Shown here: in pieces, positions 3,895 through 49,806 of the stretch
How the letters are laid out: the number at the start of each line of letters is the position of its first letter
Position numbering within the stretch: position 1 is the stretch's first letter
Program-made: the position numbers and the translations under genes
NCBI GenBank assembly: GCA_001595385.3
Contig: LVEI03000001.1
Coordinates: forward strand, 1,765,501-1,829,500
Direction of reading: 5' to 3'
Source of the DNA: Deltaproteobacteria bacterium GWC2_55_46
GTDB lineage: Bacteria > Desulfobacterota > GWC2-55-46
Length of the DNA stretch: 64,000 bases
Notes under the pieces: model-generated
Databases searched by the model: none
What the model saw: the letters and a program-made list of their open reading frames with translations, nothing else
Told to the model about the DNA's origin: nothing

Positions 3895-3925
3895 CTACCT
3901 TTAGGGGGACGCGCCCAACCTCACT

Positions 3926-5401: not shown

Positions 5402-5429
5402 CCGCCCTGGGGTTTTCCCCATTCCTTCC

Positions 5430-5455
5430 AAAAGCCCGTGTTTTGCAAGGCTTTT
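5430..5455 (+). terminator. Possible weak terminator after rng
   Basis: AAAAGCC pairs with GGCTTTT across a 12-base loop, and the T run lies inside the 3' arm. It sits between rng and a well-formed promoter for the cytochrome gene. Confidence 0.35.
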
Positions 5456-5469
5456 CGGTTTCAAAGCCC

Positions 5470-5499
5470 TTGACAAGCAATCCCCTTCCCGTTTACCAT
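5470..5499 (+). promoter_or_regulatory. Candidate sigma-70 promoter for the cytochrome c pair
   Basis: TTGACA (5470-5475), an 18-base spacer and TACCAT (5494-5499). The inferred start near 5506 gives a leader of about 35 bases with a TAGGAG ribosome site before the ATG at 5541. Confidence 0.5.
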
Positions 5500-5540
5500 A
5501 AAGGCAGCCTTATTTATCCTTTTTCAATGTTAGGAGCAAG

Positions 5541-6209
5541 ATGAGAGCTCTTGGGGTTTTATTCGCTGTTACAGCCCTTGCCTGCGCTGTTTTGTTTCCG
5601 GCTGGAGCGCAGGCCGGGGTCGCTGAAGGGAAAAAGGCTTTCGAGGCGCGCAAATGCGCCTCATGCCATCAGGTCGCCGGGCCTGCCTCTGAAAAGACCA
5701 TAAAGGACCAGCTCGCCAAGAAAGGGCCTGAGCTCTGGTACGCGGGCAGCAAGTTCAAGGCCGGTTTTCTTGAGAGGTGGCTCTCCAACCCTCAGCCCAT
5801 AAGGCCGCTTGCCTACAATAGCGTAACCGAGAGGAACAAGGGCGACCACCAGAGGCTTGCCGGTCCAGAGGCGAAAGACGTGGCCGTGTACCTTATGAGC
5901 CTCAAATCGACAAATGTAAAGCAGCTCGGCATCCAGCCGGCAGACACCCCGAAGGGCAGGGTTATTTTCATAAAGAAGCAGTCGTGCTACGGCTGCCATA
6001 CCGTCATCAATAACAGGGGCAAGGCCGTGGGCGGCCTCTCCGGCCCCGCTCTTGCCAACGCCTATGACAGGCTCAACCCGGACTGGGTCTACGCCTATCT
6101 TTCCAACCCGAAGGCCTTCAAGCCGGTCAAGATGATGCCTGTCTATGCCGGGGTGCTTAACGACGCCGAGATGAAGGAGCTCGCGGCGTATGTCGGGGGG
6201 CTCAGATGA
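5541..6209 (+). CDS. Periplasmic diheme cytochrome c
   Basis: The 222-residue protein starts with a Sec signal peptide (basic start, hydrophobic core, cleavage after about AGAQA near residue 25). It carries two covalent heme sites, CASCH (C39-H43) and CYGCH (C149-H153), each in its own cytochrome c domain. It probably carries electrons in the periplasm; its redox partner cannot be told from sequence. A TAGGAG site precedes the ATG. Its stop overlaps an in-frame ATG of the next cytochrome gene (ATGA), so the two are likely translated together. Confidence 0.9.
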   Translation: MRALGVLFAVTALACAVLFPAGAQAGVAEGKKAFEARKCASCHQVAGPASEKTIKDQLAKKGPELWYAGSKFKAGFLERWLSNPQPIRPLAYNSVTERNKGDHQRLAGPEAKDVAVYLMSLKSTNVKQLGIQPADTPKGRVIFIKKQSCYGCHTVINNRGKAVGGLSGPALANAYDRLNPDWVYAYLSNPKAFKPVKMMPVYAGVLNDAEMKELAAYVGGLR

Positions 6210-6226
6210 GATCGAAGGAGCGTGCG

Positions 6227-6592
6227 ATGGGTTTGAGGCCTTATTATATCGTCCCGGCCATTCTGCTGGCCCTGGGCGCGGCAGCCGCGCCTTCTTTCGG
6301 GGCCACGGCAGAGGAGAACTATAAATTCTATTGCGCCCAGTGCCATGGAACACACGGCAGGGGAGACGGGCCAAACGCCACGAAGGAGATGCCGGTTAGC
6401 CCGCGCGATCATACAAGCGCGGTCGAGATGAGCAAACTAACGGACGAGGATATCATAAACGCGATAGCCGAGGGCGGCCCGGCCACGAGCAAGTCAAGCC
6501 TCATGCCCCCTTTCGGCAAGACCCTCACCAGGGGTGAGATAACGGAGCTTAAGGCCTATTTGAGAAAGCTCTGCAACTGCAAGGGGAAGTAG
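6227..6592 (+). CDS. Periplasmic monoheme cytochrome c
   Basis: A class I cytochrome c of about 121 residues with one CAQCH heme site (C36-H40) after an N-terminal signal segment, and a Met ligand candidate in the SLMPPFG motif. I chose ATG 6227 because AAGGAG lies six bases upstream; an in-frame ATG at 6206 would overlap the previous stop and add seven residues. The C-terminus has two extra cysteines (LCNCKGK). It is in one operon with the diheme cytochrome and likely accepts or donates electrons in the same chain. Confidence 0.87.
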   Translation: MGLRPYYIVPAILLALGAAAAPSFGATAEENYKFYCAQCHGTHGRGDGPNATKEMPVSPRDHTSAVEMSKLTDEDIINAIAEGGPATSKSSLMPPFGKTLTRGEITELKAYLRKLCNCKGK

Positions 6593-6607
6593 CATCAAGG
6601 TATCAAA

Positions 6608-6823
6608 ATGGGTTTTGGTTCAGAGAGGTTCGGATTCGTACTTATGCTCCTCGGCGCGCTCCTCGTCATCGAGGGCATCCCGTACTTCGGTTTTCCCAAG
6701 GCGGTAAGGCATTGGGCGGGGTATCTCCACCGTCTCCCCGAGAAGAGGATGAGGCTTCTGGGCCTCGTGATAATGGCCTCTGGCATAGTCCTTCTTTTCG
6801 CCATAAGGGACATCTGGAAGTAA
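6608..6823 (+). CDS. DUF2065 family small membrane protein (first copy)
   Basis: The 71-residue protein has two hydrophobic segments around a short basic loop, and the LLGALLVIEGIPYFGFP motif typical of DUF2065 (YjeT-like) inner-membrane proteins. Function is unknown in the family; members often lie near hflK/hflC, but not here. It starts 15 bases after the cytochrome gene with an AAGG site. The next gene is a second copy of the same family. Confidence 0.75.
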   Translation: MGFGSERFGFVLMLLGALLVIEGIPYFGFPKAVRHWAGYLHRLPEKRMRLLGLVIMASGIVLLFAIRDIWK

Positions 6824-6827
6824 GCCC

Positions 6828-7016
6828 ATGGAGATCATACTTCCAGTCCTCGGCGCCCTGCTTGTCATAGAGGGGCTGCCGTATCTCCTCTTTCCCGGTA
6901 AGGTCAAGGAATGGTCGGCCGCGCTTGTTGAGGCTACAGAGCCGGGGATGAGGGTAATAGGCCTTGTAACCGTTTTTGCCGGGCTACTAATACTCTACCT
7001 TGTCCGGTCCTTCTAA
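6828..7016 (+). CDS. DUF2065 family small membrane protein (second copy)
   Basis: The 62-residue protein repeats the pattern of its neighbour: VLGALLVIEGLPYLLFP, a polar middle and a second membrane span (VTVFAGLLILYLV). The two share the same fold and key residues but differ clearly, so this is an old tandem duplication. It starts four bases after the previous stop. The two may form a hetero-oligomer in the inner membrane; this is inference. Confidence 0.72.
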   Translation: MEIILPVLGALLVIEGLPYLLFPGKVKEWSAALVEATEPGMRVIGLVTVFAGLLILYLVRSF

Positions 7017-7030
7017 ATCTACCCTGAGCA

Positions 7031-7056
7031 AATCGGAGTTTTTCAGCAACTGATAA
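7031..7056. repeat. R5 repeat fragment (AATCGGAGTTTTTCAGCAAC)
   Basis: The same block recurs at 43804-43830, and its TTTTTCAGCAACC part at 32055-32075. Here it ends three bases before the SpoIID-like start codon, so that gene has no usable Shine-Dalgarno site of its own. Confidence 0.6.
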
Positions 7057-7059
7057 TAT

Positions 7060-8160
7060 ATGCCATCGTTTAAAACCAGGCCCTGGCGGCTTATAAGCGT
7101 TCTTTTGCTCCTGCTCTCTGGCTGTCTCCATACGGCGCCCGGCCAGGCTGGCTATGGGGAGAAGGTGCGGGTCCTGATACTTAAATCGTCCGGCTCCTTT
7201 GACCTCCGTGGCACTGACAGGGGGGAGCTGCATATCAGGTACTCCGGGGCGGAGTCCGCCTCTGTGAACGGCAGATTGAAGCGCCTGCCGATGAAGCTTT
7301 ATCCAGAGGACGAGTTCGTCTATATAAACGGCAGGCCCTACCGCGGGACGGTCGAGGTCTCGGCTGGCAAGGGCGCCCTTCTGGTAGTGAACGAAGTCAA
7401 CATGGAGGCCTACATAGCCGGGATAATAAATAACGAGATATCGTCCAAATGGCCTGAGGACGTGATAAAGTCACAGGCTGTCATCGCCAGGACCTATGCC
7501 CTCTTCAACATGAGAAAGAGGCAGAACCTGCCTTATCATGTTGAAAGCTCTGTCATGGGGCAGGTCTACAGCGGCGCCTCGGTAGAGGATAACGCCGCCA
7601 TAAAGGCCGTGCAGGCAACCGCGGGCGAGATACTCGTCTTTGACGGCGAGCCGGCCCTGACGGTCTACCACTCGAACGCCGGCGGCATGACCGATTCGGC
7701 GCGCGAAATATGGCGCAGGGATTATCCATACCTTCTGCCGGTGGAGAGCCCGTTTGATGCGAGCGCCCCGAAGTACGAGTGGGAGTTCGCCCTCCCGGCG
7801 GAGTCTTTCAAGGGGCTCCTTTCTTCCGGGGGCCTCCCCGCGCTCACTCCTCAAGAGATAACCGTCCTCGATACTACCTCGGCTGGAAGGGTAAAGCTCA
7901 TCGCCTTAAGGGATGGCAGCGGGAAAGAGGCGCGGTTATCGGGTGAGGAGCTTAGAGGGGCCGTAGGTTACTCTAATTTGAGATCGACCTTCTTCGCTGT
8001 CGAGAAGGACGGGGACCGCTTTATCTTCAAGGGCAGGGGCTCCGGCCATGGGGTCGGCCTCTCCCAATGGGGGGCAAAGGGGATGGCGGAGAACGGATAT
8101 TCCTACAGGGAAATACTCGATCATTTTTATCCGGGCACAGAGCTTACCAGGGCGTGGTGA
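7060..8160 (+). CDS. SpoIID/LytB domain lipoprotein
   Basis: The 366-residue protein has a lipoprotein signal peptide (LLLLLSGC, lipobox Cys near residue 22) and a SpoIID domain (about 100-360). Typical stretches are VEAYIAG-like (MEAYIAGIINNEISSKWP), SQAVIARTYA, YHSNAGG and GHGVGLSQWGA. SpoIID proteins are lytic transglycosylases acting on denuded glycan; in Gram-negative bacteria the homologues probably remodel the cell wall. The start codon directly follows a dispersed repeat and lacks a clear ribosome site. The next gene, queA, follows after 57 bases. Confidence 0.87.
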   Translation: MPSFKTRPWRLISVLLLLLSGCLHTAPGQAGYGEKVRVLILKSSGSFDLRGTDRGELHIRYSGAESASVNGRLKRLPMKLYPEDEFVYINGRPYRGTVEVSAGKGALLVVNEVNMEAYIAGIINNEISSKWPEDVIKSQAVIARTYALFNMRKRQNLPYHVESSVMGQVYSGASVEDNAAIKAVQATAGEILVFDGEPALTVYHSNAGGMTDSAREIWRRDYPYLLPVESPFDASAPKYEWEFALPAESFKGLLSSGGLPALTPQEITVLDTTSAGRVKLIALRDGSGKEARLSGEELRGAVGYSNLRSTFFAVEKDGDRFIFKGRGSGHGVGLSQWGAKGMAENGYSYREILDHFYPGTELTRAW

Positions 8161-8217
8161 CCCACCTTTTTTTAAATCCCCTCTAAATCAAGCGGACCTC
8201 TTTGAGAATTGACTCTG

Positions 8218-9234
8218 ATGGAACTTAACGACTTCATATTCGACCTCCCTGAGAGGCTCATCGCCCAGCACCCGCTGCCTGAGAGGGACGCTTCGCGCCT
8301 CATGGTGCTCTCCAGGGAAACCGGGCATATTGAGCACAGCTCATTCAGGGACCTCGCCAAGTACCTCAAGGCCGGGGACGTCCTTATATTGAACGACACC
8401 AGGGTCATTCCTACAAGGGTCTTTGGCCAGAAGGGCAGCGGCGGCAGGGTAGAGCTCCTGCTCGTTGACAGGACAGGGGCAGATGGGGATGAATGGAGGT
8501 GCCTGGCGAAGCCCTCGAAGGGGTTGAGGAACGGGACGCGCCTGACCATCGAAGGGGTCGAAGGCGAGATAACCGGAAAGGATGATGAGGGGCTTCTGAC
8601 TTGCAGGTTCGCAAGTCCTCTCGACCTTTCTTCCATAGGCAAGATCCCTCTGCCGCCTTATATAAGGAGGGAGGCTGACGAGGCGGATAGCGTCAGGTAT
8701 CAGACGGTATTCGCCGGGTCCGCCGGGGCTGTAGCGGCCCCAACCGCCGGGCTCCATTTTACTGACGGGCTTATCGACGATATAAAGCGCAAAGGCGTCA
8801 TCGTACACCGCTTAACCCTGCATACAGGCCCGGGCACCTTCATGCCCGTGCGTTGCTCAAGGATCGAGGAGCACAGGATGATGAAAGAGCGCTACATCAT
8901 AGGTAAAGATGCCTTCGATGCGGTGGCGAGCGCGAAAAAGGAAGGGCGGAGGGTCGTTGCCGTGGGCACTACCTCTACGCGCGCCCTCGAATCGAGCGTG
9001 AAGAACGGCTTTGAGAGGCCGGCCCTTGAGGGAGCAACAGACCTTTTCATCTACCCGGGCTTCAGCTTCAAGGCGGTGGACGCCCTCCTGACCAATTTTC
9101 ACCTGCCAGGCTCGACGCTTATAATGCTTGTGGCGGCCTTCGCGGGAACGGGACTGACTCTCGGCGCGTACAGGGAGGCCGTCCGGAAAGAGTACAGGTT
9201 TTTCAGCTATGGCGACGCGATGCTTGTGCTGTAG
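8218..9234 (+). CDS. queA: S-adenosylmethionine:tRNA ribosyltransferase-isomerase QueA
   Basis: QueA transfers the ribosyl part of SAM to preQ1 in tRNA, forming epoxyqueuosine. The N-terminus (MELNDFIFDLPERLIAQHP) and the motifs VLILNDTRVIPTR, AAPTAGLHFT, LHTGPGTF and NFHLPGSTL are standard. An in-frame TTG at 8209 would add three residues, but ATG 8218 gives the normal family N-terminus. The next gene, tgt, makes the preceding step of the same pathway, so the two form a queuosine operon that runs on into the Sec accessory genes. Confidence 0.95.
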   Translation: MELNDFIFDLPERLIAQHPLPERDASRLMVLSRETGHIEHSSFRDLAKYLKAGDVLILNDTRVIPTRVFGQKGSGGRVELLLVDRTGADGDEWRCLAKPSKGLRNGTRLTIEGVEGEITGKDDEGLLTCRFASPLDLSSIGKIPLPPYIRREADEADSVRYQTVFAGSAGAVAAPTAGLHFTDGLIDDIKRKGVIVHRLTLHTGPGTFMPVRCSRIEEHRMMKERYIIGKDAFDAVASAKKEGRRVVAVGTTSTRALESSVKNGFERPALEGATDLFIYPGFSFKAVDALLTNFHLPGSTLIMLVAAFAGTGLTLGAYREAVRKEYRFFSYGDAMLVL

Positions 9235-9265
9235 ACTGTAGATTGTTCTGCTATGATATTCGTAA

Positions 9266-10426
<1,161 letters not shown>

Positions 10427-10445
10427 AAAAAGGAGGACTATTTTC

Positions 10446-10769
10446 GTGTTTTTTTTCCCAGTCGCAATGGCCTACGCACAGGACGCTCAGCCGGCCGTGC
10501 CCGGACTCTCGGGCCTCATGAGCATAGCCCCGCTGATAATACTCTTCGTGATCTTCTACTTCCTCCTCATAAGGCCGCAGCAGAAAAGGGCCAAGGAGCA
10601 CAGGCAGATGATGGCCGCCGTCCAGAAGGGCGACAACATTGTCACCTCCAGCGGGATCCACGGCAAGGTCGTAACGGTGAACGAGGATACCGTCATGGTG
10701 GAGATAGCCGATGGCGTGAAGATCAAGATGTCCAAGGAATCTGTCGCCGTAAGAAAGCCTCAAGCGTAG
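10446..10769 (+). CDS. yajC: Preprotein translocase subunit YajC
   Basis: The 107-residue protein has one N-terminal membrane span (LIILFVIFYFLLIRPQQKR) and a soluble tail with the KGDNIVTSSGIHGKV motif. YajC associates with SecDF and SecYEG. The GTG start has a full AGGAGG nine bases upstream. A strong terminator follows, but secD begins about 60 bases later. Confidence 0.93.
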   Translation: MFFFPVAMAYAQDAQPAVPGLSGLMSIAPLIILFVIFYFLLIRPQQKRAKEHRQMMAAVQKGDNIVTSSGIHGKVVTVNEDTVMVEIADGVKIKMSKESVAVRKPQA

Positions 10770-10783
10770 GTAACTTTGTCTTT

Positions 10784-10809
10784 GCCGCCCCGCGGGGCGG
10801 CGTTTTTTT
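10784..10809 (+). terminator. Rho-independent terminator after yajC
   Basis: GCCGCCCC and GGGGCGGC form a perfect 8-bp stem with a two-base gap, followed by G and seven T. It could lower secDF expression relative to queA-tgt-yajC, as it lies inside the usual operon. Confidence 0.75.
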
Positions 10810-10872
10810 GTTTTGAGCCGCCGGTAAGCATAAAAGCGCCGGTGGTAAATCGGCTGTCATTCCGGAGATAGG

Positions 10873-12459
10873 ATGAGAAGTATTTTCTGGCGCGTCGTAC
10901 TTCTGGCCGCGTTCACAGTCCTGGCGATAGTGCTTTTCCTGCCCTCGACCCCTCTTTCAAAGAGGCTGCCATCGTTCTGGGTCAATAACATCCCCAAGAT
11001 AAACCTGGGCCTTGACCTCCAGGGGGGCATGCACCTGGTATTGAACATAGACCAGGCAAAAGCGGTGGAGAGCCATACACAGAGGCTCGCTGGCTCTCTT
11101 GAGGATGCGCTCAAAAAGAAGGGCATACCTTATTATAGCGTCAACAGGCAGGGGATTGATTCCATAGCGGTAGCCTTCCCTGACGAGAAGACGAAGGGCG
11201 AGATAGCAAAGCTCGTAAAGGATGAGTTCGGGATATTCGGCTCTCCTTCTGAGGAGAGCGGCAGGCTCCTTTTCACCCTCGATCAGCCCGAGACAGACCG
11301 CATAAGGGAGTGGTCTGTATCCCAGGCCCTTGAGACCATAAGGAACAGGATAGACAAGTTCGGGGTCGCCGAGCCCATAATACAAAAGCAGGGCGAAGAC
11401 GAGCTTGTCGTACAGCTCCCAGGCCTCAAGGATCCCGAGAGGGCCATTCAGCTCATCGGCAAGACGGCTGTCCTGGAATTCAGGCTCATCGACGAGTCGA
11501 TGAGCCCGTTTGCCGCCGAGACGCAGGGCGCGCCGTTCGGCTCAGAGGTCATCTATCAGTACTCCGTCGACAAGCAGACGGGCGCTCAGCAGAAGACCCC
11601 CTTTCTCGTAAAGAAAGATTCCATACTTACGGGGGATTCGCTCTCCGACGCCAGGGTCGCCTTCGACACCCAGTATAACGAGCCGTATGTCTCGCTTACA
11701 TTCGATTCGGCGGGCTCTCGCGTCTTCGAACGGGTCACGACACAGAACGTCGGCAAAAGGCTCGCCATAGTCCTTGACGGGAACCTCCATTCAGCCCCCC
11801 AGATAAGGGAGCCGATAAGCGGCGGCAGGGCGCAGATAAGCGGCGGCTTCACCTATGAAGAGGCCACAGACCTTGCCATAGTCCTCCGGGCGGGCGCTCT
11901 CCCGGCCCCGGTAAACATCATCCAGAACGTGACCGTCGGCCCAAGCCTCGGGCAGGACTCGATCGAGGCTGGCATAAAGGCCGGCCTCCTCGGCGCGTCC
12001 CTCGTCCTCGTCTTCATGCTGTTTTATTACAAGGTTTCCGGCGCAATAGCGGACTTCGCCGTGTGCCTGAATATCATAATGCTCCTCGGGGCCATGTCAT
12101 GGCTGAACGCCACGCTCACGCTCCCTGGCATAGCCGGTATCGTTCTCACCATAGGCATGGGCGTTGACTCCAACGTCCTCATATTCGAGAGGATAAAAGA
12201 GGAGCTCCTGGCGGGACGCACCCCCAGGTCTGCCATAAACGCCGGGTATGACAGGGCGTGGTGGACGATCGTCGACGCACACGTGACGACCTTGATAACC
12301 GCTGCCGTGCTCTTCCAGTTCGGGAGCGGGCCGATAAAGGGCTTCGCGGTATCTTTGAGCCTCGGAATACTCATAAACCTCTTCACCGCCCTTGTCGGCA
12401 CGAAGGTGGCCTTTGATATCCAGAGCGAGAAGCTGAGGGTCAAGAAGCTTAGCATCTAA
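10873..12459 (+). CDS. secD: Protein translocase subunit SecD
   Basis: The 528-residue SecD has its first membrane span at residues 8-25, a large periplasmic region with the NLGLDLQGGMHLVLNID motif, and five C-terminal spans with GIAGIVLTIGMGVDSNVLIFERIKEE. With SecF it uses the proton gradient to pull translocating proteins into the periplasm. TAGGATGAG overlaps the ATG, giving a weak ribosome site. secF follows after 35 bases. Confidence 0.95.
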   Translation: MRSIFWRVVLLAAFTVLAIVLFLPSTPLSKRLPSFWVNNIPKINLGLDLQGGMHLVLNIDQAKAVESHTQRLAGSLEDALKKKGIPYYSVNRQGIDSIAVAFPDEKTKGEIAKLVKDEFGIFGSPSEESGRLLFTLDQPETDRIREWSVSQALETIRNRIDKFGVAEPIIQKQGEDELVVQLPGLKDPERAIQLIGKTAVLEFRLIDESMSPFAAETQGAPFGSEVIYQYSVDKQTGAQQKTPFLVKKDSILTGDSLSDARVAFDTQYNEPYVSLTFDSAGSRVFERVTTQNVGKRLAIVLDGNLHSAPQIREPISGGRAQISGGFTYEEATDLAIVLRAGALPAPVNIIQNVTVGPSLGQDSIEAGIKAGLLGASLVLVFMLFYYKVSGAIADFAVCLNIIMLLGAMSWLNATLTLPGIAGIVLTIGMGVDSNVLIFERIKEELLAGRTPRSAINAGYDRAWWTIVDAHVTTLITAAVLFQFGSGPIKGFAVSLSLGILINLFTALVGTKVAFDIQSEKLRVKKLSI

Positions 12460-12494
12460 AGGCCGCAGACGCGGCTTTCGGAGGATAGACATAG

Positions 12495-13409
12495 ATGGAC
12501 CTTGTCCGTAACACAAAGATAGATTTCCTTGGGAAAAGGCGGATAACATTCGTCATCTCGATAGTCCTTGTCCTGTTGGGGCTTGTGGCCGCTATCGCCA
12601 TACCAATGGGCAAGGCGAACCTGAGCACCGACTTCGAGGGCGGAATAGCCATACAGTTCAGGTTCCAGAATGCCTTTGAGATAGACAGGATGAGGGTGCT
12701 CCTCGCTGAAGCGGGCTTCAAGGACGCTAACTTGCAGCAGTTCGCCGAGCCCACGAAGCTCCTCGTCAAGCTCAAGAGGTCTGACGGAGACCTGAGGGCC
12801 CTGTCCCAATCACTCGGAGATGTCTTCACAAGGGGCATCCATGACAACCCCTTTACGATAGACTCGACCACCGAGATTGGTCCTACCGTGGGAAAGAAGC
12901 TCCAGAAGGACGCGCTCTGGGCTGTGCTTATTTCTATGATAGGCATACTCCTTTATGTGGCGTGGAGGTTCGAGTTCAGGTTCGGCGTGGCCGCGGTGGC
13001 AGCCACCTTCCATGACGTCCTGGCCGTACTCGGCGTATTCTTCCTGCTCGACAAGGAGATGAGCCTGCTGGTAGTGACAGCCCTTTTGACCGTCGCCGGG
13101 TACTCCCTTACGGATACTGTCGTGGTCTTCGACAGGATACGCGAGAACATGAGGAAGAGGACCAAGGAGGACCTCGTGACCCTCATAAACAGGTCGCTGA
13201 ACGAGGTCCTCTCCCGTACCATCGTCACATCCCTTACTACCCTGCTCGCCGCCCTTGCCCTGACAATCCTTGGGGGGGAGGTCATACATGACTTCGCCCT
13301 TGCCCTGGTAATGGGCGTCATCGTGGGCACCTTTTCATCGATATTTATCGCGAGCCCGCTACTCCTTTACTGGAAAGGTAAGGGAAAACAATCGCTTGTA
13401 AAAGTTTAA
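12495..13409 (+). CDS. secF: Protein translocase subunit SecF
   Basis: The 304-residue protein has six predicted spans, the SecF start FLGKRRITFVIS, the STDFEGG motif of the first periplasmic loop, and YSLTDTVVVFDRIREN in the fourth or fifth span. It is the partner of SecD. GGAGG lies 11 bases before the ATG. Confidence 0.95.
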   Translation: MDLVRNTKIDFLGKRRITFVISIVLVLLGLVAAIAIPMGKANLSTDFEGGIAIQFRFQNAFEIDRMRVLLAEAGFKDANLQQFAEPTKLLVKLKRSDGDLRALSQSLGDVFTRGIHDNPFTIDSTTEIGPTVGKKLQKDALWAVLISMIGILLYVAWRFEFRFGVAAVAATFHDVLAVLGVFFLLDKEMSLLVVTALLTVAGYSLTDTVVVFDRIRENMRKRTKEDLVTLINRSLNEVLSRTIVTSLTTLLAALALTILGGEVIHDFALALVMGVIVGTFSSIFIASPLLLYWKGKGKQSLVKV

Positions 13410-13425
13410 CCCCTTCTTTGCGTTT

Positions 13426-13450
13426 CCCGCGCCCTTTTTAAGGGTGCGGG
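13426..13450 (+). terminator. Stem-loop after secF
   Basis: CCCGCGCCCTT pairs with AAGGGTGCGGG (one G-U) over a TTT loop. The T run is displaced by five bases, so termination may be partial. Confidence 0.45.
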
Positions 13451-13633
13451 ACCAATTTTTCGGATTTTCCTCAAAAAAAAGCCTATTGTAATTTTTAAAG
13501 ACTTATGCTATTCACAAGTATCGGCAGGAAGCCGTTTTGTTCATCTTTTATTTAGAAATTTAAATATGAGGCTGACCTTCCGGTAGTAGAAATCAGTAAT
13601 AAAAGGCTCATGGCGGGCCGGAAAAGGTAAGGG

Positions 13634-13672
13634 ATGCCAAGATACCAAGAAGGTATTAAGGCATTTTTTTTT
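13634..13672 (+). terminator. Terminator or attenuator just ahead of the GGDEF gene
   Basis: ATGCC/GGCAT and the inner GATACC/GGTATT form an 11-bp stem broken by AA bulges, followed by nine T (13664-13672). It ends seven bases before the first possible start of the next gene. The 13451-13633 stretch before it has no gene and is AT-rich. It may be a leader RNA whose terminator controls the signalling operon, or the end of a small RNA. Confidence 0.65.
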
Positions 13673-13679
13673 GCGCTGA

Positions 13680-15278
13680 ATGGATCTACGTAGTTCCACG
13701 CTAAAGAGCGGCTCTATGGAAAAGAAAAACGGCTTTTCCGCTATTCCCGCCCCCATGGACCTGTCGGTCTGGAGGGAGTTTCAGAAGGGGCTCTCGCTTC
13801 TTCTGGACATGCCGCTTCAGCTTTATGACTCGGCAGGGAACCTGCTTGTCCCCTCGATAAAAGAACCGTGCGTTTGCGAGAAGGTCTGTTCAAACGAGCG
13901 CGGCAGGTCCCTTTGCTCGGAGATGATCTTGGCCTCCATAGCCAAGGTCATCGAAAAAAAGAAAGCTTACATATTCAAATGTCACGTGAACCAGTACTTC
14001 TTCGCTGTCCCTGTCATCCTCGCTTCCGGCCACGCGTTTGTGATAATCGGTGGGCGGGCGTACTTCGAAGGGAGCGTAATAAAGGATTTTTATGAGGGTA
14101 TAAGCGGGTTGGGCTTAAGCGAGTCTGAAGCGAGCGGGCTTCGGGCAGAGCTGAAGACGGTCCAGCCGAAGTCCATGTTCATGGCCCCGACGATATTGCA
14201 CAGCATGTCCGTGCCTCTTTTGACCTCCCTGGTGGCAAACCGCCAGGCAGGCGCGGGAGACTCTGACGTGAGTCTCAGGGGCTTTAAGGCCCTGGAGCAG
14301 GTCTACAGGTCGATAGCGCCTGTGCTGGACCGGGAGGAGCTCTATGAGACGATACTGGCGAAATCCTCCGAGCTGGTGGGGGCCGACAGGGGGTCTCTTA
14401 TGATCCTCGATAACAAGCAGAACGTACTTTCGGTCAAGGCATCAAAGGGCATGGACAGGAAGATCGCAGAGGGCTTGAGGGTCAAGGTCGGCGACGGTAT
14501 CTCCGGGGCGATAGCGGCCAGGGGCGTGCCGGTGATAGTCAGGGATATAGAGAACGAGGTGCCGTCCTGGAAGAACAGGCCGAGGTACAAGACCAAGTCC
14601 TTCATATCCTTGCCGCTTAAGCTCGAGAGCAAGGTCATAGGCGTAATAAATTTAAGCGACAAGAACTCCGGCGAGGTCTTCTCTGAAGAGGATCTGCACC
14701 TGCTGCTCTCTTTTTCGAACTACGCCTCTATCGCCCTGGAGCGAGGCGCTTACTACAGCATGAGCGAAGAGCTCAAGATGCTCTCCATGACAGACCCGCT
14801 TACGGGCCTTTTCAACAGGAGGTATTTCAGGGAAAGGCTCTATGAGGAAGTCGAGAGGGTCAAGAGGCATAACGAGTGCTTCACCTCCTTTGTAATAGAC
14901 ATAGATAACTTCAAGAGCTTCAATGACAGGTATGGCCATCTCGCGGGCGACGAGGTCTTGAAGGGTGTTTCTCGGGCCATCAGGGACGCCGTGAGGTCCA
15001 TGGACGTAGTGGCCAGGTACGGCGGCGAGGAGTTCGCGGTCATCCTCCCGCATACGAACAAGGCCGACGCCTCCATCATAGCCGAGAGGATAAGAAAGGG
15101 CGTTCAGGACTTCAGGCCGCCGAACCCGGACTTCGAGCACTGGCCCACCATAAGCCTTGGCGTGGCAGAGTTCCCCGGGGACGCGAGCCACATAGACGAT
15201 CTCATAAACAAGGCCGACAAGGCCATGTACCTGGCCAAGAGGATGGGCAAGAACAAGGTAGTGGTCTATGAAAGATAG
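13680..15278 (+). CDS. Diguanylate cyclase with PocR-like and GAF sensor domains
   Basis: The 532-residue protein makes cyclic di-GMP. Residues about 25-200 form a Cys-rich PocR-type sensory domain (CVCEKVC, LCSEM, FKCHVNQYFFAVP). A GAF domain spans about 210-355 and the GGDEF domain about 365-530. The active loop is GGEEF (448-452), and the inhibitory I-site RSMD (R439, D442) sits five residues before it, so product inhibition is expected. ATG 13680 follows a T run with no ribosome site; ATG 13716 (MEKKNG) is a plausible alternative. The stop overlaps the start of the next gene by 11 bases. The cysteines could bind a metal or sense redox state; that is inference. Confidence 0.9.
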   Translation: MDLRSSTLKSGSMEKKNGFSAIPAPMDLSVWREFQKGLSLLLDMPLQLYDSAGNLLVPSIKEPCVCEKVCSNERGRSLCSEMILASIAKVIEKKKAYIFKCHVNQYFFAVPVILASGHAFVIIGGRAYFEGSVIKDFYEGISGLGLSESEASGLRAELKTVQPKSMFMAPTILHSMSVPLLTSLVANRQAGAGDSDVSLRGFKALEQVYRSIAPVLDREELYETILAKSSELVGADRGSLMILDNKQNVLSVKASKGMDRKIAEGLRVKVGDGISGAIAARGVPVIVRDIENEVPSWKNRPRYKTKSFISLPLKLESKVIGVINLSDKNSGEVFSEEDLHLLLSFSNYASIALERGAYYSMSEELKMLSMTDPLTGLFNRRYFRERLYEEVERVKRHNECFTSFVIDIDNFKSFNDRYGHLAGDEVLKGVSRAIRDAVRSMDVVARYGGEEFAVILPHTNKADASIIAERIRKGVQDFRPPNPDFEHWPTISLGVAEFPGDASHIDDLINKADKAMYLAKRMGKNKVVVYER

Positions 15279-17466
15279 GATGCTCTTCAATACCTGCCCT
15301 GACGGCGAGTTCTTCGGCCGGGTATACGAGATAGATTACATCTGCAGGAGGGCGGCTGAGAAGCCCGCCCCGGCCATCTTCCTTTTCGGAGGACGCTGGA
15401 CCGGGAAGACAGAGCTCCTCCGCAGGGTCTTCCACGGCCTCTTCTGGGGACAGGCCAGGGTAGTGCCCATTTACTACCAGTTCAAGGGCTACGGCTCCGC
15501 CGAGGAGTTCGCGGAGGACTACCTGAAGGAGGTCCTGAAGCAGTACCTCGCCTTCAGGCTCCGCGACGCCAGGCTCGTCCGCAACGAAGTCTCTCTCGAT
15601 AAGCTCGACCGCCTGCTCGTGGATAACGACCTTTACGACCTCGCCGACCTCGCCGCCATTCACAGGGAGGCGCGCAGGGCTTCCGACAGCACCGCGGCCT
15701 TGAGGAACGCCCTTTCAAGCCCGGCGATGGTCTCCGCGCGCTCAGGCATACCCGTATACCTCATACTGGACGATATCGACCACGCGGCGTGCTCGGACGG
15801 TCAGAGGGAGGCCGCGTTGTCCAGGGAGCTTATCGACTCGCTCTCGCTCGGCCCCGCCTCCTTCGTCGCTTCTGCGTCGACCAAGCGCCCTCTCGATGGC
15901 GCCGCCTTCAGCGGCTCGGCCGAGGCCATGGAGCTTCCCGGCCTTGACGAGGAGGTCGCCACGTCGATGATGATGGACTTAGGCCGCCAGTACGGGGTCG
16001 AGTTCGATACCGAAATATTGAGGCTCGCGGCCACGAGGCTTGAGGGGAACCCCATGTACCTTAAGAGCCTGGTCTGGGCGGCGGCCAAATCCGGAGTAAG
16101 CCTTTCTACACTCAAGGAGTTCGGGGACCTCTATACCCAGGACCTCTTCGAGGGTAATATGGGCATAGCGCTGAGGTCGGCATTGGGGCTCCGGGGGATA
16201 AACAGTTTAAGGGTGCTCCATGCGTGCTCCACATCGAAGAGGCCGCTTTCCGACGAAGATCTCTCCGAGAGGTTCAGGCTTGAGCCCTCGGAACTTGAAA
16301 ATATCATCGAGGGGCTCTCTGAGGCCGGTCTCGTGGAGGTGAACCTCGGATCGCTCCTGTGGGCCGGGGGCTCGGTAGTCAAGGATTTCATATGCTTCGT
16401 CTACGAAACGCGCGTTAAGGGTAGAAGCGCCGAAGAGGTAAGGACCTATCTGGCCAGGGAGATACTGAAGGAAGGGTTCGGCTTCAGGGGGGCGAGGGCC
16501 GGGTTAAAGCTCAAGGACGAAGTCGCCGAAGTAATGAGATCGTTCAACAACCAGAAGGTACTGAAGCTCCTTTTCCGGAACCAGGCGTTTTCAGCCAGGT
16601 TCAAGAAAGGGAAAGGCGGGGACGAAGGCGAGCTTACGGTCCCGCAATCAGTTGGCTGCTTCTCATCCGAACGCCTTGAGGCCGGAGAGGCGGGCCCGCC
16701 AATACTCGTGGCGCACGGCTTCCAGAACGGCAGGTACGATTCCGGCAATGAGGTCGTCTGGATAGCCTCGGTCAAGGACGCCCTTTCGCCGGTCAATATC
16801 GGCGACGTAGAGAACTTCCTGAGGCGCACCCAGATACTCCGGGAGAACTTCAGGGCCGCGAAGGTCGTAAGATGGATGGTCGGGAGGGAGGGCTTCACCG
16901 CCGAAGCGCAAAAGCGCATAGAGGCCGAGGGCGTTTTCTCATCCGATTCTGTCCAGTTGAAGATAATAAAAGAGGGGCTCGCCGATAAAGACTCGGCCAC
17001 GAGGCTCAAGTCCTCTGATAAGATAGCCCCGGTCAAGGAATTCGAGGTGGTGCTGCCTTCGTCTTCCAAGGCCGAGCTTGTGGCGGCGAAGGCGGTCGAG
17101 GAGATAGGCACCGAGATGGGCTTCGACGACGCGGCCATAGGCCAGATAAAGGCCGCCCTAGTAGAGGCCTGCATAAACGCATTCGAGCACAGCAGGCTTA
17201 AGATCGCGAAGGTCTTTTTGAGGTTCGTCGCCTCTGCCGACAGGCTTACCATCCATGTCCAGAACGGCGGGGTCGATTTCGACAGCCCTTCCGAGCCTTC
17301 AGACCCCATCGAAGCGGGGGCCATGCCCAGGAAGCGCGGCTGGGGATTCGAGCTCATGAGGGGGCTTATGGATGAGGTCAGGGTAGAGCGGGTAAGGGGA
17401 GGGGCGAAGATAGTCCTCGTGAAATACCTTGTAAAAGGAGATAGCAGTAATGGTAAAGAGGTATAG
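15268..17466 (+). CDS. AAA/STAND-like ATPase fused to RsbW-like histidine-kinase-type ATPase domain
   Basis: The 732-residue fusion starts with an AAA-type P-loop domain: Walker A GGRWTGKT (41-48) and Walker B YLILDDIDH with D168/D169. The middle resembles a winged-helix and arm region (about 300-560). The last 140 residues are an HATPase_c domain of the anti-sigma kinase type: N-box E633-A-C-I-N637-A-F-E-H641 and G-box RGWGFELM near 690-697. Such domains phosphorylate STAS-domain antagonists in partner switching, and the very next gene encodes a STAS protein whose start overlaps this gene by 17 bases. I know of no characterised protein with this exact fusion. It lies between a cyclase and an HD-GYP phosphodiesterase. 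Confidence 0.82.
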   Translation: MKDRMLFNTCPDGEFFGRVYEIDYICRRAAEKPAPAIFLFGGRWTGKTELLRRVFHGLFWGQARVVPIYYQFKGYGSAEEFAEDYLKEVLKQYLAFRLRDARLVRNEVSLDKLDRLLVDNDLYDLADLAAIHREARRASDSTAALRNALSSPAMVSARSGIPVYLILDDIDHAACSDGQREAALSRELIDSLSLGPASFVASASTKRPLDGAAFSGSAEAMELPGLDEEVATSMMMDLGRQYGVEFDTEILRLAATRLEGNPMYLKSLVWAAAKSGVSLSTLKEFGDLYTQDLFEGNMGIALRSALGLRGINSLRVLHACSTSKRPLSDEDLSERFRLEPSELENIIEGLSEAGLVEVNLGSLLWAGGSVVKDFICFVYETRVKGRSAEEVRTYLAREILKEGFGFRGARAGLKLKDEVAEVMRSFNNQKVLKLLFRNQAFSARFKKGKGGDEGELTVPQSVGCFSSERLEAGEAGPPILVAHGFQNGRYDSGNEVVWIASVKDALSPVNIGDVENFLRRTQILRENFRAAKVVRWMVGREGFTAEAQKRIEAEGVFSSDSVQLKIIKEGLADKDSATRLKSSDKIAPVKEFEVVLPSSSKAELVAAKAVEEIGTEMGFDDAAIGQIKAALVEACINAFEHSRLKIAKVFLRFVASADRLTIHVQNGGVDFDSPSEPSDPIEAGAMPRKRGWGFELMRGLMDEVRVERVRGGAKIVLVKYLVKGDSSNGKEV

Positions 17467-17818
17467 GAACTTCAAGGAGATAGGGGATACCGTCGTCCTT
17501 TACCCTGATAATTATATCAACGACATAGAAGGGGAAAAGCTCGAAGAGCTCTGCGCCAGCTACCTTGAGCGGGGCTTCAAGAAAATAGTGATAGACTTCT
17601 CGGAGACAGACCTCATAAATTCCATCGGTGTATCCGTGCTCATCGGCATGATAGAGAAGGTCAGGGAGAAGAATGGCGCTGTCCTTTTCTCCGGGCTCAA
17701 GCGCGTTAACTACGACATATTCAGCATAGTAGGGCTTACGAAGCATATAAGGATATACGAGACCGAAGAGGAAGCCATTGGGGTCGGTCCTGACACTGCT
17801 GGTCACGTGACAGCCTGA
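17450..17818 (+). CDS. STAS domain anti-anti-sigma factor-like protein
   Basis: The 122-residue protein is of SpoIIAA/RsbV type. The STAS core runs through KIVIDFSETDLINSIGVSVL; S58 lies in the loop where RsbV-like proteins are phosphorylated, but the usual D-S-S/T-G reads N-S-I-G here, so phosphorylation should not be assumed. Its start overlaps the upstream kinase-domain gene, so the two products are probably made in fixed ratio and bind each other. The target, a sigma factor or another enzyme, is not encoded in this window. Confidence 0.85.
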   Translation: MVKRYRNFKEIGDTVVLYPDNYINDIEGEKLEELCASYLERGFKKIVIDFSETDLINSIGVSVLIGMIEKVREKNGAVLFSGLKRVNYDIFSIVGLTKHIRIYETEEEAIGVGPDTAGHVTA

Positions 17819-17836
17819 AACCCTTAGGAGGAGTTG

Positions 17837-19066
17837 ATGTCTGAAGCCGAACTGAGCCTTGAAAAGCTCCTTTTCAACCTGAGCACGCTTGCGGAGCTTG
17901 GTGAAGAGATAACCTCGCCAAAGGATTTTAACAGGGTAGTGAAGAGCGCCCTTTACATGGTGATGGGCTCGTTTTCGTCAACAAAAGGCGCGATATTCCA
18001 GTACGACCAGGACAGGGATTTCTTCACCCCCATAGCCTCCAAGGGCCTTGGCGACATAGGCGGGGTGTCGATCAAGCTCGGGCACGATGAAGTAGCCGGG
18101 CTTGTAAAGCACAAGGACCCCCTGGACCTCGCCTCCGGGGCCCATCCGGCAGGCCTGCTGGGTACGGCAAGGGAGGCGTTAGATAAGCTTGACGCGAAGG
18201 TGCTGGCATGCCTTATCGTTAAAAACGAGCTGCTGGGCCTTATCGCCATAAACGGCAAATTCACCGGCGAGCCATTTACCGTATACGATTACCAGCTCCT
18301 GTCGGTCATGTCCCAGCACATCTCATTTTCGCTCCACAGCCATTCGCTTCTGATGAAGCTCATGCACAAGTACACGGAGAACAAGAACCTGTACGACAAT
18401 TTAAGGCGCATATACTACGACACCATACACGCCTTTGCCGCCGCCATCGACGCCAAGGACGCCTATACCAGGGGCCATTCCCACAGGGTCTCGGCCTATA
18501 GCGCGGCGCTGGCAAGGGAGATGGGCTGGTCTAACGACGAGGTCGAAGGGATAAGGATAGGCGGACTCCTTCACGATATCGGCAAGATAGCCGTCGACAA
18601 GACCATCATAAACAAGGCGAGTCCGCTTACGAGCTATGAGTGCAGGGAGCTCAACTCGCATCCGGTCGTGGGCTACGAGATACTCTCCAAGATAAAGTTC
18701 CCGTGGAAGGGTATACCCATGATGACACGGAACCACCATGAGAAGGTGGACGGCTCAGGTTATCCCGACAGGCTCAAGAAATCCGAGATACCCATAGGCG
18801 CCAGGATAATGTCGCTCGTGGACGCCTTCGACGCGATGACGACCGACAGGCCGTACAGGCCCCGTCTCTCTTTCAGAGAGGCGATGAGCGAGGTAAAGGA
18901 GAACTTCGACAGGCAGTTCGACCCGGAGGTCGTCTACCCGTTCATCTCGGTAATAAAGAAAGAGGTGAGAAGGGAGGTCGATAACCCGACGATAGTGCCT
19001 CTTCTTCTGGAGCAGTTGGATTCTGTCACCATCGACAGGATGTTCGAGGGCTTCCCCCCTGCCTAA
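17837..19066 (+). CDS. GAF/HD-GYP domain cyclic di-GMP phosphodiesterase
   Basis: The 410-residue protein has an N-terminal GAF domain (about 25-175) and a C-terminal HD-GYP domain (about 190-390). The metal and substrate residues are intact: HDIGK (H246-D247), HH (300-301), the signature DGSGYP (305-310) and DAFDAMTTDRPYR. HD-GYP enzymes break c-di-GMP to pGpG or GMP. ATG 17837 has AGGAGG five bases upstream; a TTG directly before it is too close to that site. Being in one operon with a GGDEF cyclase, it likely balances the same signal. A terminator follows. Confidence 0.92.
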   Translation: MSEAELSLEKLLFNLSTLAELGEEITSPKDFNRVVKSALYMVMGSFSSTKGAIFQYDQDRDFFTPIASKGLGDIGGVSIKLGHDEVAGLVKHKDPLDLASGAHPAGLLGTAREALDKLDAKVLACLIVKNELLGLIAINGKFTGEPFTVYDYQLLSVMSQHISFSLHSHSLLMKLMHKYTENKNLYDNLRRIYYDTIHAFAAAIDAKDAYTRGHSHRVSAYSAALAREMGWSNDEVEGIRIGGLLHDIGKIAVDKTIINKASPLTSYECRELNSHPVVGYEILSKIKFPWKGIPMMTRNHHEKVDGSGYPDRLKKSEIPIGARIMSLVDAFDAMTTDRPYRPRLSFREAMSEVKENFDRQFDPEVVYPFISVIKKEVRREVDNPTIVPLLLEQLDSVTIDRMFEGFPPA

Positions 19067-19097
19067 TAAGGCTGGCAGCGCGTTAATCAGGAAAGAA

Positions 19098-19135
19098 GGC
19101 CCCGTCGGAAAGACCCGCCGGGGCCTTTCTCTTTC
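19098..19135 (+). terminator. Terminator of the signalling operon
   Basis: GGCCCCGTCGG pairs with CCGCCGGGGCC (one mismatch) over AAAGAC, followed by TTTCTCTTTC. The rest of the 312-base gap (19136-19378) is AT-rich and holds no convincing gene; its end shares a CGACATG...GGAAAAAA block with 28512-28540. Confidence 0.75.
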
Positions 19136-22479: not shown

Positions 22480-23493
22480 ATGAGAGTCGCCCTTACCTAC
22501 AATCTGAAAAAGGACCTCGTGGAGGCCAAAAGCCTCCCCTCGGACTTCTACGCGGAGTGCGACGAGCCTGAGACCATTCAGGCCGTCCGTGACGCCCTCG
22601 CGGAGCGTCATGAAGAGGTCGCCATGGTAGAAGCCGACGAGGATGCCTTCGAGAAGCTCCGGCGCCTTAAGCCCGATATCGTCTTCAACATGGCCGAAGG
22701 GCTCTGGGGAGAGAGCAGGGAGGCGCAGATACCGGCCGTCCTCGAGATGCTCCGCATCCCGTACACCGGCTCAAACCCGCTGACATTGGGGCTTTGCCTC
22801 AACAAGGCCCGCGCGAAAGAGGTCCTTGCCTATTACGGGATACCCACGGCAAGGTTCGTCGTAGCCGCCGCGCCCTCTCTTGAAATAGAGAAGTTCCTGA
22901 CCTTCCCGATGATAGTGAAGCCGCTATTCGAAGGTTCGAGCAAGGGCATAAAGAACGATTCCATCGTACATACCCCCTCTGAATTAAAGAAGAAGGTCGC
23001 CTCGGTGCTCGAAGAGTACTCCCAGCCCGCCCTTGTGGAGGAGTACCTGAGCGGGCGCGAGTTTACCGTCGCGCTCATGGGTAACGGTGAGGGGCTCAAG
23101 GTCCTCCCGATAGTCGAGATAAACTACTCTGCCCTCCCGGCGGGCGTAAACCATATATATTCGTACGAGGCCAAATGGGTGCTCGACACACCGGATGCCC
23201 CGCTCGACATATTCACGTGCCCGGCGCAGATACCTGACAGGCTCAAGAGCGCCATCGAGGCGGTTTCAAGGGACGCCTTCAAGTCGCTTGACGTCAAGGA
23301 CTGGTGCAGGATAGACGTAAGGCTCGATTCATCTGGCGTGCCGCACGTCATAGAGCTCAATCCCCTGCCCGGCATCCTCATGGACCCGAAGTGCAATTCA
23401 TGCTTTCCCAAGGCCGCGAGGGCAGCCGGGATGTCGTTCAGCTCCCTCGTAAACGGCGTGCTTGATGCCGCGCGCGGAAGGTTCGGCCTGTGA
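22480..23493 (+). CDS. Ddl-like ATP-grasp ligase (first of pair)
   Basis: The 337-residue ATP-grasp protein is of D-alanine-D-alanine ligase type: N-terminal domain (1-95), YTGSNPLTLGLCLNKARAK, PMIVKPLFEGSSKGI for ATP binding, VEEYLSGREFTVALMG, and the metal site VIELNPLPG near the C-terminus. It lies in no cell-wall cluster but directly after arginine decarboxylase, and its stop overlaps the GTG of a second ligase by four bases. Such enzymes join an amine to a carboxylate using ATP. The substrate is not known; a role in making an agmatine- or amino-acid-derived amide is inference. Confidence 0.8.
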   Translation: MRVALTYNLKKDLVEAKSLPSDFYAECDEPETIQAVRDALAERHEEVAMVEADEDAFEKLRRLKPDIVFNMAEGLWGESREAQIPAVLEMLRIPYTGSNPLTLGLCLNKARAKEVLAYYGIPTARFVVAAAPSLEIEKFLTFPMIVKPLFEGSSKGIKNDSIVHTPSELKKKVASVLEEYSQPALVEEYLSGREFTVALMGNGEGLKVLPIVEINYSALPAGVNHIYSYEAKWVLDTPDAPLDIFTCPAQIPDRLKSAIEAVSRDAFKSLDVKDWCRIDVRLDSSGVPHVIELNPLPGILMDPKCNSCFPKAARAAGMSFSSLVNGVLDAARGRFGL

Positions 23494-24533
23494 GGCCGTC
23501 GAAGGTGAAGATAATCTTCAACGACGACGGACATGACACATACGCCATGGGCGGCAAGGCGATAGACCTCGAAGACATCAACTCTACCGTAGCCGACGTA
23601 GATGGCGCCTTAAGATCAAAAGGATATCCCGTATCGAGTGTGCCGCTTAAGGGCAGTGAAGATCTCGATAGGTTCACGGCAGAGATAAAAGACACAGAGG
23701 CGGTCATCTTTAACCTCTGCGAAGGGGCCTTCTCCAAGAGCTCATTCGAGATGAACGTGGCGGCCCTCCTTGAGCTCTACGGCGCGCGCTTTACGGGCAA
23801 CGGCCCGCTTACGCTGGGGCTCTCTCTCAATAAGGGCCTTACAAAGGATATACTCTCCAGAAGGGGCGTGCCTACGCCGGCTTACGCCGTCATGAATGAG
23901 CCGCCGGAGGAGATTGCCGGCCTTGAGTTCCCGCTTATCGTCAAGCCGCTTTGCGAGGACGCAAGCGTCGGGATAGATTCGAAAGCGGTCGTTGGGAACC
24001 TTGCGGAGTTGCGTGAGAGGGTCGGGCATGTCGTCTCGAAGTTCTGCCAGCCGGCCATCGTGGAAGAATATATCGACGGCAGGGAGTTCAATATCGCGGT
24101 AATGGGCAATGGAAGAGGCGCGCGGGCGCTGCCGCCTTCGGAGATACTCTTCGTCGATTTCCCTGAGGGCAGGCCGAAGATATGCTGCTACGAGGCCAAA
24201 TGGGTGGAGGAGAGCCCCTTTTATATGAAGACGGTCCCGAGCTGTCCCGCGCAGATACCCGACAGTCTCAAGGCCGAGCTTCAGTCGATAGCGCTGCTGG
24301 CCTACAGGACCATGGGCTGCAGGGATTACGCCAGGGTGGACATGAGGCTCGGCATGGACAATAAGGTCAGGGTGATCGAGGTAAACCCCAACCCGGACAT
24401 ATCGTCAGATGCCGGGTTCGCGAGGGCAGCCAAAGCCGCCGGGCTTGAGTACGCCGACCTTATAGCCGCGATAGTCGAAGCGGCGGTCGAGAGGAATGAA
24501 CCGCAGGAGGCCAGGGCCTGCTTAGCGAGATGA
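23490..24533 (+). CDS. Ddl-like ATP-grasp ligase (second of pair)
   Basis: The 347-residue paralogue of the preceding ligase has the same blocks: FTGNGPLTLGLSLNKGLTK, LIVKPLCEDASVGI, VEEYIDGREFNIAVMG and VIEVNPNPD. The N-terminal substrate-binding part differs strongly (NDDGHDTYAMGG), so the two probably act on different substrates or in sequence. The GTG start overlaps the previous TGA (GTGA), and the stop overlaps the next ATG (ATGA). A second GTG at 23505 is possible. Confidence 0.8.
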   Translation: MRPSKVKIIFNDDGHDTYAMGGKAIDLEDINSTVADVDGALRSKGYPVSSVPLKGSEDLDRFTAEIKDTEAVIFNLCEGAFSKSSFEMNVAALLELYGARFTGNGPLTLGLSLNKGLTKDILSRRGVPTPAYAVMNEPPEEIAGLEFPLIVKPLCEDASVGIDSKAVVGNLAELRERVGHVVSKFCQPAIVEEYIDGREFNIAVMGNGRGARALPPSEILFVDFPEGRPKICCYEAKWVEESPFYMKTVPSCPAQIPDSLKAELQSIALLAYRTMGCRDYARVDMRLGMDNKVRVIEVNPNPDISSDAGFARAAKAAGLEYADLIAAIVEAAVERNEPQEARACLAR

Positions 24534-47737: not shown

Positions 47738-48155
47738 CAAGGTAAAGGTGGTCGCCATAATACAGTGCGACTTCGCGAAGGAGCGCTGCAGCGGCTTTTG
47801 CTGCGTAAACTCATTCTCTAAAAGGATAGACGCCTTTGCGGGATATCCCAAAGATGCCGAGATAATGGCTGTGCCATTCAACTGCGGCGGCTGCCCCGGC
47901 AGGAGGATATCCCGGTCTGTGGCTCATCTGGTGAAGAGGGCCAAGAAGAAGGCGGAGATAGAAAAGGACGAGATCGTCTTCCATCTTTCGTCATGCATGG
48001 TAACAGACAACGGCCATTATCCGCCGTGCCCGCACCTGGATTATATCGAGAAGATATTGATGAGGAAGGGCGTTAGATATAAAAAGGGGAGCTACAGGAG
48101 CAAGACCGCGACAGCGAGGCGGCAGGCGGGGGTTTACGAGCCGTTCGAGTTTTAA
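47727..48155 (+). CDS. CGGC domain protein
   Basis: The 142-residue cytoplasmic protein is of the CGGC domain family (NCGGCPGRR), with further cysteines in QCDFAKERCSGFCCVN, LSSCMVTDNG and PPCPHLD, enough to bind metal or Fe-S. Function is unknown; such domains are common in anaerobes. The gene overlaps ubiB, so it belongs to the quinone cluster. Its many cysteines would suit a redox or cluster-binding role in O2-independent hydroxylation; that is inference. Confidence 0.78.
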   Translation: MEDSKVKVVAIIQCDFAKERCSGFCCVNSFSKRIDAFAGYPKDAEIMAVPFNCGGCPGRRISRSVAHLVKRAKKKAEIEKDEIVFHLSSCMVTDNGHYPPCPHLDYIEKILMRKGVRYKKGSYRSKTATARRQAGVYEPFEF

Positions 48156-48157
48156 TT

Positions 48158-48190
48158 CCCCTCTTTAAAAAAGAGGGGAAGGGGAGATTA
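48158..48190. repeat. R1 palindromic repeat, copy 3
   Basis: CCCCTCTTT AAAA AAGAGGGG followed by GGGGAGATTA, the minimal R1 unit, directly followed by an R6 block (48191). Confidence 0.7.
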
Positions 48191-48237
48191 CTCGCCTTCG
48201 TCGCGCCTTGGTCTATTTTGTGCTGACGCTCTGCGAC
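48191..48237. repeat. R6 repeat, second copy
   Basis: CTCGCCTTCGTCGCGCC and TGCTGACGCTC match 31955-32000. Confidence 0.6.
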
Positions 48238-48267
48238 AAAGAAGATTTTGTCATAAGGAGTTTTTAG

Positions 48268-49803: not shown

Positions 49804-49806
49804 AAT

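Follow-up and report, generated by a model that had tools for sequence, protein, structure and literature searches.

A four-gene operon joining c-di-GMP synthesis and breakdown genes with a STAND-type ATPase/RsbW-fold fusion and a STAS protein

Partner switches that act on diguanylate cyclases have been described in the SiaABCD, HsbA/HsbD and BgrV/BgrR systems (PMC8457831, PMC7647112, PMC5085249). In SiaABCD of Pseudomonas aeruginosa, the kinase is SiaB, the STAS-fold protein is SiaC (T68 in LNTSS), and the diguanylate cyclase is SiaD, which is activated by unphosphorylated SiaC (PMC8457831, PMC7647112). HsbA (P. aeruginosa, Ser56) is a STAS-type anti-anti-sigma protein whose phosphorylation state governs its binding to, and activation of, a cyclase (PMC5085249). 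In the BgrSTUWV/BgrR system of Sinorhizobium meliloti, the STAS protein BgrV regulates the cyclase BgrR, according to the text that cites it (PMC8457831). Given these published systems, control of c-di-GMP by a partner switch has precedents. The proposal of the initial annotation that a STAS switch sets the c-di-GMP level at the present locus is partly supported, and its principle is in outline that of SiaABCD, HsbA/HsbD and BgrV/BgrR. Separate small kinases had also been taken as the rule for known sets, which does not hold for Rv1364c (PDB 3ke6) or HsbR (PMC5085249); a report of a fusion to a STAND ATPase was not found. In the full-text literature searched, which covers few subscription papers, no paper brought together HD-GYP, RsbW and STAS, or a STAND NTPase and RsbW.

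Layout of the operon and its two c-di-GMP enzymes

According to the ORF listing, four genes spanning 13680-19066 of the window (the whole stretch of 64,000 nucleotides that was analysed) encode PocR-GAF-GGDEF, AAA-HATPase, STAS and GAF-HD-GYP proteins. The features are listed in Table 1. The four-gene operon with these domains described in the initial annotation is real, as the ORFs and Pfam agreed, with the AAA_16 match of the fusion (2e-6, 28.7 bits) lying under its cut-off of 32.6. The overlaps of 11 bases between the cyclase and fusion genes and of 17 bases between the fusion and STAS genes were confirmed from the ORF coordinates. For the HD-GYP gene, the ATG at 17837 was the likelier start, and the TTG at 17834 was also possible. 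No promoter-like site was found 5' of the operon in a sigma-70 promoter scan.

Table 1. Coordinates of the operon, its protein domains and its boundaries in the window.
Feature	Coordinates	Strand	Basis
Terminator-like hairpin after secF, upstream boundary	13425..13451	+	12-pair stem, -22.6 kcal/mol, z -4.95
PocR-GAF-GGDEF diguanylate cyclase, 532 aa	13680..15278	+	Pfam
AAA-wHTH-(endonuclease-like)-HATPase fusion protein, 732 aa	15268..17466	+	Pfam, fold comparison
STAND/archaeal-type AAA ATPase and winged helix, residues 5-377	15280..16398	+	Fold match, Walker motifs
Fusion middle domain, residues 390-584, PD-(D/E)XK/restriction-endonuclease-like fold, degenerate active site	16435..17019	+	Domain-only model
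RsbW-like HATPase_c_2 kinase domain, residues 590-721	17035..17430	+	Pfam, fold match
STAS protein, 122 aa, predicted phospho-acceptor Ser58	17450..17818	+	Pfam, alignment
GAF-HD-GYP c-di-GMP phosphodiesterase, 409 aa from ATG	17837..19066	+	Pfam, motifs
Terminator-like hairpin, downstream boundary	about 19091..19135	+	-28.3 kcal/mol, z -3.27

The cyclase matched the Pfam profiles PocR (1.4e-12), GAF_2 (4.9e-19) and GGDEF (5.3e-50). Both motifs of an active diguanylate cyclase, GG(D/E)EF and the RxxD I-site, were present as GGEEF and RSMD, and GGEEF, R439 and D442 were invariant in the alignment of 17 relatives. The HD-GYP protein matched HD_5 (1.6e-37) and, weakly, GAF_3, and it had the complete HD...HDIGK...HHE..DGSGYP motif set. 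The HD, HHE and DGxGYP residues, which are those of an active phosphodiesterase, were invariant in the 15 aligned HD-GYP sequences. In deeper members of the class (L048, L049, L050, L056 and L058), the upstream gene encoded a longer cyclase, in which an extra GAF-like domain of ~170 residues lay between PocR and the GGDEF-adjacent GAF.

Two other regions of the window were recorded. The GC fraction fell to 0.47 at 48001-52000, compared with about 0.56 before, and acquired DNA is a possible explanation. A tandem pair of putative D-Ala-D-Ala ligase-like (ATP-grasp) genes, named by reading their sequences, was located at 22480-24533 and recurred beside the operon in several relatives.

The fusion protein, its putative STAS partner and the missing phosphatase

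STAND ATPases are best known from immunity and apoptosis. The full-length model of the fusion had a mean pLDDT of 80, and residues 5-377 matched the archaeal STAND-like ATPases PABY2304 (2qen, Z 22.9) and SSO1545 (2fna, Z 22.8), with which the fusion had the ATPase and winged-helix fold in common. The AAA core, the winged helix and both Walker motifs of STAND/archaeal AAA ATPases were present; moreover, G46, K47 and T48 of Walker A and D168 and D169 of Walker B were invariant in the aligned class members. The fold matches and the invariant Walker residues upheld the STAND-type identity that had been assigned to this region. The solved archaeal proteins comprise about 350 residues with no RsbW-like domain, whereas the fusion comprises 732 residues with one.

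The middle domain was missed by the full-length fold search and was therefore modelled alone (pLDDT 88). Its fold matches were AF1548 (1y88, Z 10.7), EndoMS (8.8), MspJI (8.2) and FokI (7.8), followed by RPB5; the Z values were moderate and the best Foldseek E was 1.3e-3, and the top rows agreed on one fold, which was restriction-endonuclease-like. An intact D...(D/E)XK active site was not found in the aligned relatives. D491 was kept, the acid of (D/E)XK was replaced at S501, and position 501 in the relatives was S, G, A, V or F and never an acid; K503 was mostly kept within the class and lost in f39, which represents a second class. Catalysis by the middle domain is unlikely because the acidic residue of (D/E)XK has been lost. 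The earlier domain reading of the fusion was thus correct for the ATPase and the C-terminal kinase domain and overlooked the endonuclease-like domain between them.

The C-terminal domain matched HATPase_c_2 (2.1e-16). Residues 590-721 superposed on RsbW (6m36) with a Z of 19.0 and an rmsd of 1.4 Å over 105 residues, which upheld the RsbW fold proposed for the C-terminus. The N-box residues E633 and N637 and the second glycine box were invariant in the aligned class members, and the counterpart of Glu633 is the catalytic base in SpoIIAB. The Asp of the G1 box contacts adenine in GHKL ATPases. This residue was replaced by N666 in all 17 of the 17 aligned class members, whereas the f39 homologues retained Asp; hence, ATP binding and kinase activity of the domain are not assured. 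The G1 Asp-to-Asn change had gone unnoticed in the initial annotation, which was right about the RsbW fold.

The STAS protein matched the STAS profile (1.9e-14) and aligned with SpoIIAA and TM1081. Ser58 corresponded to the phosphosite of SpoIIAA, as had been proposed; N57 was invariant in the aligned sequences, and 17 of 18 sequences had Ser at residue 58, with Thr in the remaining one. Judged from the alignments, the two proteins would supply the pair typical of a partner switch, namely an RsbW/SpoIIAB-type GHKL domain with the N-box Glu and Asn and a STAS protein with a predicted phosphorylatable Ser/Thr. The next three HATPase_c_2 matches examined in the genome were HisKA kinases of the usual type, and the remaining STAS gene had a receiver-domain gene on one side and a CheA-like gene on the other; thus, no RsbW-like/STAS pair besides the fusion and its STAS protein is evident in this genome. 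The second STAS gene was located in L071 (1108-3272), and its CheA-like neighbour was of the Hpt/CheA-like kind.

A search of the genome that covered SpoIIE and PP2C_2 among the phosphatase families gave no match to either, so the classical reset step is without a candidate. The kinase/STAS pair described in the initial annotation was recovered, but that annotation had overlooked that no PP2C/SpoIIE phosphatase is recognisable. Among the examined f1 and f39 fusion carriers, some with fragmented genomes, neither SpoIIE nor PP2C_2 was found. PP2C_2 was found in two f11 carriers and in G104, and three f7 carriers had SpoIIE, which in one of them (G035) was near a separate small HATPase. On contig 11 of G035, a region of about 11 kb (L061, about 3304-14100) carried genes for SpoIIE, a HAMP-GAF-GGDEF cyclase and a stand-alone HATPase_c_2 protein of 137 aa. 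This set is possibly a second, phosphatase-bearing c-di-GMP switch.

The HATPase domain could also be a nucleotide-gated tether that holds the STAS protein without phosphorylation, with capture and release driven by the STAND ATPase cycle. No phosphatase would then be needed, which agrees with the lack of SpoIIE and PP2C_2 matches in this genome and in the examined f39 carriers, and the G1 Asn of all aligned class members and the joining of the kinase domain to another ATPase point in the same direction. However, Glu633, Asn637 and the phospho-acceptor Ser/Thr were conserved, which is unexpected if phosphorylation were dispensable, and the f39 homologues keep the canonical G1 Asp and yet are also without SpoIIE or PP2C_2. 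We regard the tether as possible but doubtful.

Conservation of the set and its putative target

The fusion was present in 32 of 59 genomes taken from the same class. The fusion and the STAS gene coincided in 57 of the 59 genomes (both in 31, one without the other in 1 and 1, neither in 26), and the Fisher p value was about 2e-14, uncorrected for shared ancestry. In the two exceptions, one fusion was cut by a contig end and one STAS was distant and of another kind. The order cyclase, fusion, STAS and HD-GYP was kept in the fetched loci of many families wherever the contig was long enough, and the 11-base cyclase/fusion overlap recurred in most related loci examined. In its own family, the four-gene set was located between secDF and recJ; in L047, L048, L049, L052 and L056, no secDF or recJ was seen in the part of the contig fetched around the set, and yet the four genes remained linked. 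The recurring order, the overlap and the fusion/STAS co-occurrence indicate that the arrangement is not due to chance. The linkage claimed by the initial annotation was upheld, since unlinking in relatives, named beforehand as the observation that would count against it, was not seen in the related loci examined.

A contig search with one protein gave matches only in deltaproteobacterial MAGs and one uncultured bacterium. Most of the relatives identified by name were uncultured Deltaproteobacteria, for example GWA2_55_10 and GWB2_55_19. Among plasmids, there was a single match of 33%, which was limited to the kinase domain, and the viral contig search yielded no relatives.

The wider phylum was surveyed by searching 395 genomes and then fetching loci, and three arrangements were seen. 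In f39, a full-length fusion was accompanied by STAS, the HD-GYP gene came next in several members, and the cyclase was absent; an HD-GYP gene adjoining STAS was not detected in the f39 loci L101, L102, L105, L107 and L108. In L112, a fusion without the middle domain lay beside a TPR protein, STAS and HD-GYP. In f20 and f34, a small separate HATPase and STAS were followed by a GAF-histidine kinase, and f99 also had a GAF gene. SpoIIE genes were near this small-HATPase arrangement in L118 and L119, where the stand-alone HATPase and STAS genes accompanied a GAF-histidine kinase or GAF gene, with an ABC_sub_bind gene in between in L118. In f39, L107 and L108 had long ORFs (1672 and 1531 aa), which were considered as fusions with an upstream gene and rejected. 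They were treated as over-extended frames because the L107 extension had no Pfam match, the upstream radical-SAM gene of L106 was oppositely oriented, and other loci had ORFs that resembled this gene in size and orientation.

The GAF domain of the gene after STAS, which sits on HD-GYP or HisKA outputs, scored 36-102 bits with the HD-GYP GAF profile, compared with 19-35 bits for other GAFs; the f39 scores (36-48 bits) were barely above background. These scores weakly suggest that the GAF protein is the putative target of the switch. From the f39 linkage without a cyclase and the similar GAF after STAS elsewhere, we infer that the GAF/HD-GYP enzyme was the earlier target and that the cyclase was added afterwards. 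The initial annotation had missed the evidence that the widely conserved partner is the HD-GYP enzyme, not the cyclase.

The same neighbourhoods bear on two other readings. If the HATPase domain were an anti-sigma factor and the STAS protein its antagonist, the c-di-GMP enzymes would be upstream inputs or mere operon neighbours. RsbW and SpoIIAB are indeed the closest solved relatives, the genome has ten Sigma70_r2 matches, and HsbA also acts on FlgM/FliA (PMC5085249). However, among the neighbours annotated, no sigma or anti-sigma gene was linked to the set, whereas a GAF-output gene was linked, and the HATPase-STAS pairs elsewhere in the phylum adjoin GAF-HisKA genes and not sigma genes. A sigma-factor switch appears improbable. 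We give very little weight to a STAS switch whose target lies outside the operon and with which the c-di-GMP enzymes share no more than expression. STAND and HD-GYP proteins are common and HD-GYP was not adjacent in some f39 loci, but the linkage is retained in two classes although their flanks differ, and a similar GAF is repeatedly found on the gene after STAS.

Proposed mechanism and comparison with known systems

We favour, at about even odds, an operon-encoded signalling unit that sets c-di-GMP via a partner-switch-like pair. This reading is favoured by the kept gene order, the fusion/STAS co-occurrence, the RsbW fold, the N-box, Ser58 and the precedents for cyclase switches; it is weakened by the lack of a phosphatase match, the G1 Asn, the f39 loci without HD-GYP and the marginal f39 GAF scores. 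The STAND-type ATPase would serve as the input and control its own C-terminal RsbW-fold domain, and the non-catalytic endonuclease-fold module is perhaps a ligand- or nucleic-acid-binding sensor. The RsbW-fold domain would bind the STAS protein and probably phosphorylate its Ser58. In its free or its phosphorylated form, STAS may then dock on the HD-GYP phosphodiesterase encoded by the same transcript, namely on its GAF domain. In this lineage, STAS perhaps docks on the PocR/GAF cyclase too, and the two enzymes would thus be set against each other, with feedback through the cyclase I-site.

If this signalling unit operates, c-di-GMP breakdown joins sigma factors and cyclases as a target of partner switching, and STAND ATPases become linked to a Ser/Thr switch. 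Moreover, a recognisable phosphatase is absent in many carriers, so that the resetting of the switch becomes a directly testable question. In a phosphatase-free form, the STAND ATPase with its catalytically dead endonuclease-fold sensor would gate the RsbW domain mechanically or by nucleotide, and the STAS protein would be captured and released, thereby controlling the HD-GYP enzyme. We consider this form unlikely; to our knowledge, no earlier partner switch has been shown to control the breakdown of c-di-GMP or to be driven by a STAND ATPase, so that this form, if true, would be the first in both respects.

SiaABCD is an operon with a kinase, a phosphorylatable STAS-fold protein and a cyclase, and the present locus is predicted to encode a similar set. 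However, SiaC belongs to DUF1987, whereas the switch protein here matched STAS/anti-sigma antagonist families and not DUF1987 (Pfam, NCBIfam). SiaD has a stalk, whereas the cyclase here has PocR/GAF domains and fell outside the SiaD family of NCBIfam (173 bits against a cut-off of 290, in the GGDEF domain only). Furthermore, SiaA is a PP2C phosphatase and none was recognised here, the published SiaA-D operon is described without a phosphodiesterase, and SiaB is not known as an ATPase fusion, whereas the kinase domain here is fused to one. The operon is not classed as SiaABCD because its switch protein and cyclase come from other families.

In HptB-HsbR-HsbA/HsbD, a STAS-type protein switches a cyclase, as STAS may do here. 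HsbR, however, holds both kinase and phosphatase, the switch also controls FlgM/FliA, and the module was described without HD-GYP. For BgrSTUWV/BgrR, the text that cites it (PMC8457831) mentions neither a STAND fusion nor HD-GYP. RsbW/RsbV and SpoIIAB/SpoIIAA have in common with the present pair the kinase-domain fold, the N-box and a STAS protein with the matching Ser, but here the kinase domain is part of a 732-aa ATPase with Asn in the G1 box, and no sigma factor or phosphatase is linked. Because a phosphatase and the G1 Asp were looked for and not found, the operon is not classed as a classical partner-switching system. The missing phosphatase, the HD-GYP partner and the STAND-fused kinase set this operon apart from the known c-di-GMP partner switches.
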